DNA of 64,000 nt from a virus. Both the position numbers and the translations under genes were made by a program. Location of the stretch: positions 1-64,000 of the IMG/VR virus record IMGVR_UViG_3300036790_000366; one strand, given 5' to 3'. The notes below the pieces were generated by a model. The model saw only the letters and a program-made list of their open reading frames with translations, did no database searches and was not told the DNA's origin. Shown here piece after piece: positions 10,993 through 57,616 of the stretch (position 1 is the stretch's first letter; each line of letters starts with the position of its first letter).

Positions 10993-11058
10993 CAAAAATA
11001 CCCCGTCTGAAGCAAGGCACAAGGCGTACGGGCCGAGTTTCTCAAACTTCAGACGGGG
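10993..11058 (-). terminator. Terminator of the tRNA transcription unit
   Basis: On the minus strand a perfect 12-bp stem (arms 11047-11058 and 11001-11012) is followed by TATTTTTGTC (11000-10991). It lies downstream of all the tRNA genes and upstream of the gene at 10954. Confidence 0.85.
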
Positions 11059-11143
11059 ATCGTGCCGGAGCTTCGCGAGGTCTGGGCGGACCGCTCCGCT
11101 CCCTTCCACGAGGAGGCGGCCTCATGGTGGGAAGTTTTTGGGT

Positions 11144-11210
11144 GGGGTGGGCGCAGTACTTCTGTGGCGTTGAAGATACTCCGTGGAGAGGGACTCCGAG
11201 CGCCCACCCC
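11144..11210 (-). ncRNA. Long-stem branched RNA element in the tRNA unit
   Basis: A 67-nt element closed by a perfect 11-bp stem (11200-11210 with 11144-11154). Inside are a GGAG/CTCC hairpin and an 8-bp hairpin with one bulge around a 9-nt loop. It is close to tRNA length but has no T-loop sequence, so it is not called a tRNA. Function unknown. It shares the word GCGCAGTACT with the leader hairpin at 11635-11678. Confidence 0.4.
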
Positions 11211-11250
11211 TATGCAGTTGTCGCTTTGCCGTGGTGGTAAGTGCTGTGTT

Positions 11251-11328
11251 CTACAGCATCTTTCCTCCAACCCTTCGGGAGCAGGGGCATCGGTAAAACA
11301 GGTAAGACGAGCAGTTTTTGCAGGACAT
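11251..11328 (-). CDS. Possible 25-aa zinc-knuckle peptide
   Basis: ATG at 11328 to a stop at 11251, inside the tRNA unit. The peptide contains CKNC and, eight residues later, CPC, with several Arg/Lys, so it resembles a minimal zinc knuckle. The ribosome-binding site is weak (GACCTGAGC), so expression is uncertain. It could equally be chance in a structured RNA. Confidence 0.3.
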   Translation of the reverse strand: MSCKNCSSYLFYRCPCSRRVGGKML

Positions 11329-11346
11329 GCTCAGGTCCCGGTAGAG

Positions 11347-11374
11347 GGTCGCAACAACTAAGTTGCCAGCGACC
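11347..11374 (-). other. Hairpin 3' of tRNA-Glu(TTC)
   Basis: GGTCGC/GCGACC outer arms with an inner CAAC/GTTG stem. It begins 8 nt past the 3' end of the tRNA at 11383 on the minus strand, and probably marks or protects a 3' processing site. Confidence 0.45.
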
Positions 11375-11382
11375 ATACCACG

Positions 11383-11457
11383 TAGCCATGACGGGATTTG
11401 AACCCGCGATCTCCTACTTGAAAGGAAGGCGAGCTTTCCGAACAGCTCCACATGGCT
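11383..11457 (-). tRNA. tRNA-Glu (anticodon TTC)
   Basis: A 75-nt cloverleaf. Acceptor AGCCATG/CATGGCT has 7 pairs and discriminator A. D arm GAGC-10 nt-GCTC contains GG. The anticodon arm CCTTC/GTAGG has one mismatch and loop CTTTCAA, giving TTC. The variable loop is 5 nt and the T arm is GCGGG-TTCAAAT-CCCGT. CCA is not encoded. Its 5' end lies 4 nt after a strong leader hairpin (11462-11508). Confidence 0.9.
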
Positions 11458-11461
11458 TAGA

Positions 11462-11508
11462 GGGTGGTACAGAATCTAGTAGGCGCTAGATGCCCATCTG
11501 CACCACCC
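11462..11508 (-). other. Leader hairpin of tRNA-Glu(TTC)
   Basis: An 11-bp stem (11498-11508 with 11462-11472, one G-U pair) encloses ATCTAG/CTAGAT. It ends 4 nt upstream of the mature 5' end of the tRNA. Equivalent elements precede the other tRNAs. Confidence 0.6.
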
Positions 11509-11555
11509 CACCCTTGGCAGGGTCACAACCCTAATCACCCACGAGAACGAGGGCG

Positions 11556-11629
11556 CAGCCGGTACGGGATTCGAACCCGTAGTCTTCGCCTTGAGAGAGC
11601 GATGAGATTTCCATTTACTCCAACCAGCC
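11556..11629 (-). tRNA. tRNA-Glu (anticodon CTC)
   Basis: A 74-nt cloverleaf. Acceptor GGCTGGT/ACCGGCT includes two G-U pairs. The D arm has a 3-bp GAG/CTC stem and a GG loop. Anticodon arm TCGCT-CTCTCAA-GGCGA gives CTC. The variable loop is 5 nt and the T arm is ACGGG-TTCGAAT-CCCGT. CCA is not encoded. Together with the TTC tRNA it covers both Glu codons. Confidence 0.85.
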
Positions 11630-11634
11630 TTGCA

Positions 11635-11678
11635 GGCAGCGCAGTACTCGCCACAACGAGTCGTTACACCGCGCTGCC
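11635..11678 (-). other. Leader hairpin of tRNA-Glu(CTC)
   Basis: Perfect 8-bp stem GGCAGCGC/GCGCTGCC (11671-11678 with 11635-11642) enclosing an ACTCG/CGAGT hairpin. It ends 5 nt before the tRNA 5' end. Confidence 0.6.
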
Positions 11679-11745
11679 CTCTTGCGAATGAAGCAACCCA
11701 TACCAGCCCACTGGGATGGTGGTGCCCGGCCGTGGAGGCCAAGCG

Positions 11746-11817
11746 CGCCAAGAGAGGGAGTCGAACTCTCATATCCGGTTTCGTAAACCGGTGCTCTTTC
11801 CGTTGAGCTACCTCGGC
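11746..11817 (-). tRNA. tRNA-Arg (anticodon ACG)
   Basis: A 72-nt cloverleaf. Acceptor GCCGAGG/TCTTGGC has three G-U pairs and discriminator G. D arm GCTC-AACGGAAA-GAGC. Anticodon arm CCGGT-TTACGAA-ACCGG gives ACG, which would be ICG if the A34 deaminase acts. The variable loop is 4 nt. T arm GAGAG-TTCGACT-CCCTC has one mismatch. CCA is not encoded. Confidence 0.87.
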
Positions 11818-11819
11818 AT

Positions 11820-11868
11820 GGACGACGGCCCGGTCTGTGTAACCCATTAGACAGGCGAGCCGCCGCCC
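11820..11868 (-). other. Leader hairpin of tRNA-Arg
   Basis: A 10-bp stem with two G-U pairs (11859-11868 with 11820-11830) enclosing a GTCT/AGAC hairpin. It ends 2 nt before the tRNA 5' end. Same architecture as the leaders of the two Glu tRNAs. Confidence 0.6.
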
Positions 11869-11910
11869 TTTCCCAAACACCCGACCACGTACACCGTGGA
11901 AGGGCCGTGC

Positions 11911-11984
11911 GCGGAGAAGGCGATCAATGCGGGAAACATCCTAAGCCCGGTCTCGTCTTAATAGAGAACCTGTACCTTCTCCGC
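11911..11984 (-). ncRNA. tRNA-sized long-stem RNA element
   Basis: A 74-nt element closed by a perfect 10-bp stem GCGGAGAAGG/CCTTCTCCGC. Inside, on the minus strand, are a GGT-CTC/GAG-ACC hairpin and a CGGG/CCCG hairpin with a 12-nt loop. There is no T-loop consensus and no clear D arm, so it is not a standard tRNA. It may be a decayed or specialised tRNA-like RNA. Confidence 0.45.
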
Positions 11985-12009
11985 TGCTGTGCGTCCCTTG
12001 CGGGACTAG

Positions 12010-12156
12010 GAGCCCCGGACGGATTCGAACCGCCATCTTCTCTGGGTGCTCCGTGGACGATCGACTTGTGCAAAGCAGCGCACTTCAGAAAGGTTGAAAC
12101 TAAAGTTCGCCTACCGTCCACGGCAGAGGTGTTCTTCCTCTTGAACTACTGGGGCC
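12010..12156 (-). tRNA. Interrupted tRNA-like gene, structured insertion in the anticodon arm
   Basis: Both ends read as a tRNA. The acceptor is GGCCCCA against CGGGGCT (12011-12017) with one mismatch or bulge. D arm GTTC-AAGAGGAA-GAAC (12131-12146). T arm GGCGG-TTCGAAT-CCGTC (12018-12034) is canonical, preceded by a 5-nt variable loop. The anticodon stem is CTCTG/CAGAG (12124-12128, 12040-12044), but its loop is 79 nt instead of 7. The loop starts with a 9-bp stem stacked directly on the anticodon stem (12115-12123 with 12051-12059), and the rest can fold into small hairpins. Amino-acid identity cannot be assigned. It is either an intron-bearing tRNA or a tRNA mimic. Confidence 0.6.
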
Positions 12157-12257
12157 ATGGACACCGGCCGGTCTCACGTATGTTGCAGCTACGCCACCCG
12201 GGGGAGACAGGGTGACCTGCCCCTCTACAAAGCAGGGAGGTACAACCGGTGCCACTA

Positions 12258-12286
12258 CCGCGGGGAGGATCGGTGTTTCCCCGCGG
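12258..12286 (-). other. GC-rich hairpin in the tRNA-unit leader
   Basis: Perfect 9-bp stem CCGCGGGGA/TCCCCGCGG with an 11-nt loop, about 150 nt downstream of the promoter at 12441-12469. There is no T run on either strand, so a processing or stability element is more likely than a terminator. In the rest of 12157-12432 I see only weaker pairings, including a CCTGC/GCAGG arm with an 11-nt loop near 12219-12239. Confidence 0.5.
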
Positions 12287-12440
12287 AAGACAAATAATCA
12301 TCGCTGTGAAGTTTTCAAGTATCGAGGCACAAGACCGGCGCGGGGTCCGACCGTCATACATGGACGAGGGTAGGCGCCTAGGTATGAATTTTGGGTGGTG
12401 CTGCGGTGCTTTCCGGCCGCGCCGGTCTGTGCTGGTCTCA

Positions 12441-12469
12441 AAGCTAGTGGGAGTCTTGAGTTGTGTCAA
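12441..12469 (-). promoter_or_regulatory. Promoter of the tRNA unit
   Basis: On the minus strand a perfect TTGACA (12469-12464), a 17-bp spacer and TAGCTT (12446-12441). This is the best promoter match I found in the window. It lies between the stop of the tail fibre gene and the tRNA cluster, so the tRNAs have their own start signal. Confidence 0.7.
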
Positions 12470-12487
12470 ATGATGCAGGTGGGACGG

Positions 12488-57282: not shown

Positions 57283-57350
57283 CGGACCGGACGGGAATCG
57301 AACCCGTGACCGAGGCGTATTGCTCTGCTCTACCACTGAGCTACCGGCCC
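57283..57350 (-). tRNA. tRNA-like gene with shortened anticodon arm (68 nt)
   Basis: Acceptor GGGCCGG/CCGGTCC (one G-U pair), discriminator G. D arm GCTC-AGTGGTA-GAGC and T arm ACGGG-TTCGATT-CCCGT are textbook. Only 18 nt lie between D arm and T arm (after A26) where 21-22 are normal, and they do not form a 5-bp stem with a 7-nt loop. The best fold is GAG/CTC around an 8-nt loop. No anticodon can be assigned. It is either a decayed tRNA or a functional mimic lacking decoding ability. Confidence 0.65.
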
Positions 57351-57354
57351 GTGT

Positions 57355-57370
57355 GGGGCCTTTCGGCCCC
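57355..57370 (-). other. Leader hairpin of the tRNA-like gene
   Basis: On the minus strand GGGGCC-GAAA-GGCCCC, a 6-bp stem with a GNRA tetraloop. It ends 4 nt before the 5' end of the tRNA-like gene at 57350, as in the tRNA cluster. Confidence 0.65.
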
Positions 57371-57379
57371 GTCGTGCTG

Positions 57380-57616
57380 TTACTTCGCTTCCAGGATCTC
57401 GACGACCACGCGCACCCGGACGGGCACCGTGCCGTCCAGCGGCCCCTTCTTCAGGTACAGGCCGCCGATGACGTGTCCGTCGGGGTCTCCGGTCTCGTTG
57501 AGCCGGTAGGTCCCGGGAGTCTCCTTGAAAGAGACGAACTCCGCCTCCATCCGGACGACACCGGGCTTCTTCGCCGCAGCCTTCTTGGCCGGGCGCTTGA
57601 CGACTGGAACGGTCAT
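57380..57616 (-). CDS. Small basic-tailed hypothetical protein (78 aa)
   Basis: ATG at 57616 chosen for GAAGGAAGC upstream. The N-terminus is Lys/Ala-rich (VKRPAKKAAAKKPG), followed by a beta domain (EAEFVSFKETPGTYRLNETG, VPVRVRVVVEILEAK). The protein resembles small DNA-binding beta proteins of actinophages; no firm family. The leader hairpin and tRNA-like gene follow. Confidence 0.72.
   Translation of the reverse strand: MTVPVVKRPAKKAAAKKPGVVRMEAEFVSFKETPGTYRLNETGDPDGHVIGGLYLKKGPLDGTVPVRVRVVVEILEAK

Follow-up and report, generated by a model that had tools for sequence, protein, structure and literature searches.

It is a matter of debate what phages gain from encoding tRNAs by the dozen, and the excision of these tRNAs from mixed transcripts has been little studied. 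A published precedent for structure near an RNase P site comes from the valV-valW precursor of Escherichia coli, where a stem-loop at a distance of 2 nt makes RNase P about ten-fold slower (PMC10731613). Among phages, the records of T4 and T5 annotate non-tRNA RNAs next to tRNA genes, namely species 1 and 2 of T4 and RNA I/III of T5. No earlier description of the leader hairpin presented below was found in the open-licence literature.

The window analysed here is a 64-kb stretch of DNA forming part of a 76.4-kb virus record. The DNA polymerase shares 45% identity along its length with the enzyme of Gordonia phage GMA6, which makes the source a tailed phage, probably of an actinobacterial host. 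There was no near match to the window among the phages searched; its tail, tape-measure, 788-aa and ATPase proteins, used as queries against viral_contigs, yielded at most a distant match; and five of the closest cultured relatives, as judged by DNA polymerase, contained no tRNA genes. A related contig, G004, has a polymerase that is 44% identical.

A hairpin precedes every tRNA-like gene of the window (5/5; Table 1), the leader at 57283 alone being non-significant in the helix test described below. The sequence-only reading had reported such hairpins before tRNA-Glu(TTC), tRNA-Glu(CTC) and tRNA-Arg(ACG), and these were recovered in the same places in slightly longer form; the GNRA hairpin that it placed 4 nt upstream of the tRNA-like gene at 57283 is likewise present. 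The latter hairpin sits between a TAA stop codon (57380-57382) and the gene, whose anticodon arm is shortened and which is accepted by Rfam and not by ARAGORN. The non-coding region around the cluster extends from about 11021 to 12487, and other perfect or near-perfect stems of 11–12 bp that do not abut a tRNA occur in or beside it (11001-11058, 11144-11210, 12255-12289 and 12332-12428). Both Glu leader hairpins possess a 5–7 nt bulge on the 5′ side, which could pair with the apical loop to give a pseudoknot or an alternative fold.

Table 1. Positions of tRNA genes and leader hairpins in the 64-kb window
Feature	Position	Strand	Stem sequence	Pairs	Gap to tRNA (nt)	Basis
tRNA-Glu(TTC)	11383..11457	-				ARAGORN and Rfam agree
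Leader hairpin of tRNA-Glu(TTC)	11461..11509	-	GGGGUGGUGCAGA/UCUGUACCACCCU	13	3	
tRNA-Glu(CTC)	11556..11629	-				ARAGORN and Rfam agree
Leader hairpin of tRNA-Glu(CTC)	11634..11679	-	GGGCAGCGCGGUGU/GUACUGCGCUGCCU	14	4	
tRNA-Arg(ACG)	11746..11817	-				ARAGORN and Rfam agree
Leader hairpin of tRNA-Arg(ACG)	11820..11868	-	GGGCGGCGGCUCG/CGGGCCGUCGUCC	13	2	
His(GTG)-like interrupted tRNA	12009..12156	-				ARAGORN with introns allowed
Long closing helix before interrupted His-like tRNA	12160..12253	-	GGCACCGGUUG/CGGCCGGUGUC	11	3	
Isolated tRNA-like gene, 68 nt	57283..57350	-				Rfam, 50.6 bits
GNRA leader hairpin of 57283 tRNA-like gene	57355..57370	-	GGGGCCGAAAGGCCCC	6 (GAAA)	4	

The His-like gene is called neither by ARAGORN with default settings nor by Rfam. 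Its anticodon loop holds an insert of ~72 nt with a 9-bp closing stem (CCGTGGACG/CGTCCACGG), position 33 is C rather than U, and the acceptor stem has one mismatch; it may represent an intron, an insertion or a decayed tRNA. Two interrupted tRNA-like genes also occur in another related contig (G005; L126 1040-1179 and 1323-1439), the first of which is called by ARAGORN as tRNA-His(GTG) with a 52-nt insert and follows, at a distance of a few nucleotides, a long perfect hairpin. In KVP40 (L219, 173000-181600), three Rfam tRNA matches span 113–121 nt, which suggests that they carry inserts.

The strength of the leaders was measured with a helix test, in which the strongest contiguous helix whose 3′ arm ends 0–8 nt before the tRNA is compared with dinucleotide shuffles; the test is blind to 4-bp tetraloop hairpins. 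With 3000 shuffles, p values of 0.0013, 0.0023 and 0.0017 were obtained for the Glu(TTC), Glu(CTC) and Arg(ACG) leaders, each exceeding about 99.8% of the shuffles, and among positions sampled across the window only 0.05–0.1% match these three helices. Shuffled sequence, which the sequence-only reading had named as the yardstick, thus rarely equals the stems (p about 0.002 each). Folded in isolation, the same three hairpins have z scores of -4.35, -3.89 and -3.91, respectively, and the 60-nt stretches upstream give z of about -3.3. The closing helix at 12160-12253 reaches p 0.018 in the helix test and is ordinary as a whole fold (z -0.94); the hairpin at 57355-57370 gives p 0.13 in the helix test, yet an isolated-fold z of -4.35. 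In favor of chance formation in GC-rich, hairpin-rich sequence, these last two are each unremarkable in one of the two measures, but the combined helix-test p for four leaders is 2e-7 and the pattern is replicated in other phage groups, so that chance is scarcely credible. The leader hairpins of the window are real and more extensive than first reported.

Outside the window, the element was followed as the mean helix z at gaps of 3–6 nt. This was -3.95 in the window (n = 4), -1.28±0.32 in its relatives without the window (n = 34), -0.70±0.06 in Streptomyces phages (n = 290), and -0.57±0.13 in A3Wally, Alice and Neville together (n = 63). No excess was seen at these gaps in non-actinobacterial phages (-0.01±0.11, n = 65) or on the Streptomyces atratus chromosome (0.09±0.10, n = 48), and with one chromosome and 65 non-actinobacterial tRNAs as controls, the labels “phage-specific” and “actinobacterial” are weakly controlled. 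The mixed non-actinobacterial pool shows a weak excess at larger gaps, and T5 alone is weak. The gap profiles peak at ~3–6 nt in the window and its relatives, in Streptomyces phages and in Microbacterium phage A3Wally, while the excess in Mycobacterium phage Alice lies at 5–7 nt. The related contig G004 carries 25 tRNAs, 23 of them spread across ~16 kb, and 11 of these 23 rank within the top 10% of positions when scored for a leader helix, mostly with gaps of 2–6 nt; in the cultured Streptomyces phage BRock, the count is 13/29 (KS 1.6e-8). Leaders reaching p 0.05 in the helix test amount to 23% in Streptomyces phages and 41% in the clade. The leader hairpin is consequently common to many, though not all, tRNAs of the actinobacterial phages tested.

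The same gap profiles bear on RNase P. It is conceivable that the stem regulates this enzyme by delaying 5′ processing or by imposing a cutting order, as in valV-valW of E. coli, which supplies the published precedent (PMC10731613). By expectation, however, gaps of 0–1 nt would be the most inhibitory, and the actinobacterial phage sets show no helix excess at 0–1 nt or at >15 nt (mean z at 0–1 nt of 0.41 in the window and 0.18±0.05 in Streptomyces phages), as though inhibition were being avoided. Regulation of this kind is accordingly unlikely. The ten-fold slowdown speaks against any easy RNase P story, and a puzzle is left in that inhibition is predicted from the E. coli data, yet the stem is retained by phages.

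Leader stems have a median length of 7.5–10 bp across the phage sets, and many are tetraloop hairpins of 4–6 bp. UNCG or GNRA hairpins lie 1–6 nt upstream of 54/329 Streptomyces-phage tRNAs, a 33-fold enrichment over background, and a tetraloop hairpin is found near upstream in 4/57 chromosomal tRNAs of the host control. Similar hairpins precede the tmRNAs of Genie2, Jay2Jay, Mildred21 and Paradiddles, with weak single p values and with a hairpin in only some of the tmRNA leaders; tmRNAs are substrates of RNase P too. These lengths are pertinent to the proposal that the hairpins steer RNase III or help to evade host nucleases. An RNase III processing stem would be an extended duplex spanning one to two helical turns; the three window stems have 13–14 pairs, but most leader stems elsewhere are 5–10 bp in length, and the usual substrates of RNase III are longer than these leader stems. 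RNase III steering is disfavored because most of the stems are short, and the proposal as a whole is very improbable.

Evidence for selection was sought in Streptomyces phages sharing the same architecture, with stem covariation, a check that the sequence-only reading had proposed for relatives, as the measure. When closely orthologous leaders were compared, pairing persisted at 66% of the changed pairs (28% via double changes), whereas control helices of equal strength from the same spacers retained pairing in 20–39% (5–16% via double changes; Fisher 1e-7). For example, double changes preserve the stem in tRNA-Pro leaders (GCGCUA/UAGCGC versus GCGGUA/UACCGC) and in tRNA-Asp leaders (GCGGGGAGG/CCUCCCCGC versus GCGGAGAGG/CCUCUCCGC). 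Pairwise orthologue comparisons are not independent, and a recount by tRNA family put the leader stems ahead in 12/18 (p 0.026). When pairs were formally counted in four tRNA-Pro leaders, one compensatory pair emerged, which is not significant alone. Close orthologues were used here in place of loose orthology or an unmasked preceding tRNA, either of which left the comparison uninformative. Leader pairing is thus maintained by selection in Streptomyces phages.

Taken together, the non-chance placement, the recurrence, the compensatory changes and the lack of excess in the host fit a dedicated phage pre-tRNA element. The earlier suggestion of a dedicated mechanism for phage tRNAs therefore gains from all four lines of evidence, while its RNase III component is not supported, most of the stems being short. 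Its other component, steering of RNase P by the hairpin, is possible, although the sole published test found, in E. coli, shows slowing (PMC10731613). The element itself is real, conserved and present beyond the window, and neither shuffling nor, outside the window, covariation spoke against it; its function is one that we infer.

Between hairpin and tRNA lies a linker of 2–6 unpaired nucleotides, mostly pyrimidine-A-U in phages. In Streptomyces phages, U occupies position -1 in 74% of cases and A position -2 in 63%, and the host lacks such a bias. Native leaders also give better predicted pairing of the acceptor stem than their shuffled versions do, both in Streptomyces phages (0.64 versus 0.45, p 3e-7) and in the window (0.61 versus 0.35, n = 3 tRNAs); the gain is not significant for host tRNAs (0.55 versus 0.49, p 0.23). 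This result backs a role in keeping the tRNA insulated from the RNA upstream, although the folding gain may be a by-product of any stable hairpin.

We give an even chance to the reading that the leader hairpin is an insulator element of phage tRNA precursors, positioned at the RNase P site. The precursor would be laid out as a local stem-loop, 2–6 unpaired nucleotides and then the tRNA, with phage tRNA genes presumably embedded in shared transcripts, downstream of other RNA and often of a protein gene. The hairpin would fold as the RNA emerges and block pairing between the upstream RNA and the tRNA, and RNase P, whose cut falls at the 5′ end of the tRNA, would meet just a short linker; selection would then favor insulation in RNase P cutting. 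Counting against such a role are the slowing of E. coli RNase P by a nearby stem-loop, the lack of a hairpin before some phage tRNAs, and the fact that a pure insulator need not lie so close to the cut. The hairpin may have a second role, which its closeness to the cut would also fit, as cleavage by RNase P would leave the upstream RNA ending in a hairpin plus a tail of a few nucleotides.

A rival explanation makes that upstream end the principal point, with the hairpin and its 3–5 nt tail capping the RNase P-made 3′ end against 3′-5′ exonucleases in a terminator-like manner. These exonucleases require a single-stranded 3′ overhang (PMC10503654), the tight placement observed near the cut would suit a cap, and the tested host chromosome shows no excess. 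Moreover, several protein genes of Jay2Jay end <15 nt before a tRNA, such that the hairpin spans the gene end, and the enrichment in this phage is strong after protein genes (KS 8e-6). Enrichment is also seen after tRNA neighbors (KS 0.005), however, and the clustered hairpins of the window have a non-coding spacer or a tRNA upstream, which renders a cap doubtful as the primary function. A broader version may be entertained just as tentatively, in which a general, sequence-independent leader hairpin makes RNase P sites in mRNAs into double ends, yielding a mature tRNA or tmRNA on one side and a capped, exonuclease-resistant mRNA on the other. If true, tRNA and protein genes could share transcripts.

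The spacers could alternatively encode stable small RNAs, comparable to those annotated beside the tRNAs of T4 and T5 or to Ro-bound Y RNAs, with the hairpin as their 3′ part. G004, BRock, Jay2Jay and others do carry Ro-like genes within their tRNA regions, and the window region possesses several further perfect stems. Yet no Rfam match supports such RNAs, the Ro gene is absent from this record as well as from Wakanda and Annadreamy, both of which are still enriched, and many leader hairpins are <20 nt, all of which makes this a distinctly unlikely explanation. Genes for Ro-like RNA-binding proteins were observed in or beside the tRNA regions of many actinobacterial phages, at L124 (12978-14585) and in BRock, Jay2Jay, Comrade, Paradiddles, Mildred21 and Genie2.

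A conserved leader structure in phages would account for tRNA genes placed directly after protein genes, and the leader hairpin offers an added signal for locating the true 5′ ends of phage tRNAs and for recognizing degenerate ones.

Comparison with known RNAs sets the element apart. At gathering thresholds, Rfam 15 reported only tRNA in the window, with no other credible match at E up to 5, and a large ornate RNA (GOLLD/ROOL) was rejected for lack of an Rfam match. The Y RNA idea was rejected as well, since no Ro (TROVE) gene occurs in this record, which is possibly incomplete; one is present in G004. Species 1 and 2 of T4 and RNA I/III of T5 are likewise non-tRNA RNAs of a phage tRNA region, but they are at least 100 nt in length, whereas the leader element is a short hairpin whose distance is fixed and whose sequence varies. 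Intrinsic terminators similarly put a stable hairpin close to where the upstream RNA ends; the leader hairpins differ in having no U-tract and in being followed 2–6 nt on by a tRNA. A terminator was rejected for the window, where the 2–4 nt linkers contain no U-run and a pattern scan calls no terminator at these positions.

The closest likeness is to the valV-valW precursor of E. coli, which also carries a stem-loop near upstream of the RNase P site (PMC10731613). As in that precursor, a stable stem-loop in the window occupies the part of the leader that the RNase P protein binds, 2–4 nt upstream of the tRNA (p 0.0013–0.018). Unlike it, the phage hairpins usually lie 3–6 nt away behind a pyrimidine-A-U linker and have no counterpart excess on the host chromosome. 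Finally, the valV-valW stem-loop is an inhibitor in one operon, whereas the phage hairpins recur before many tRNAs in several phage groups.
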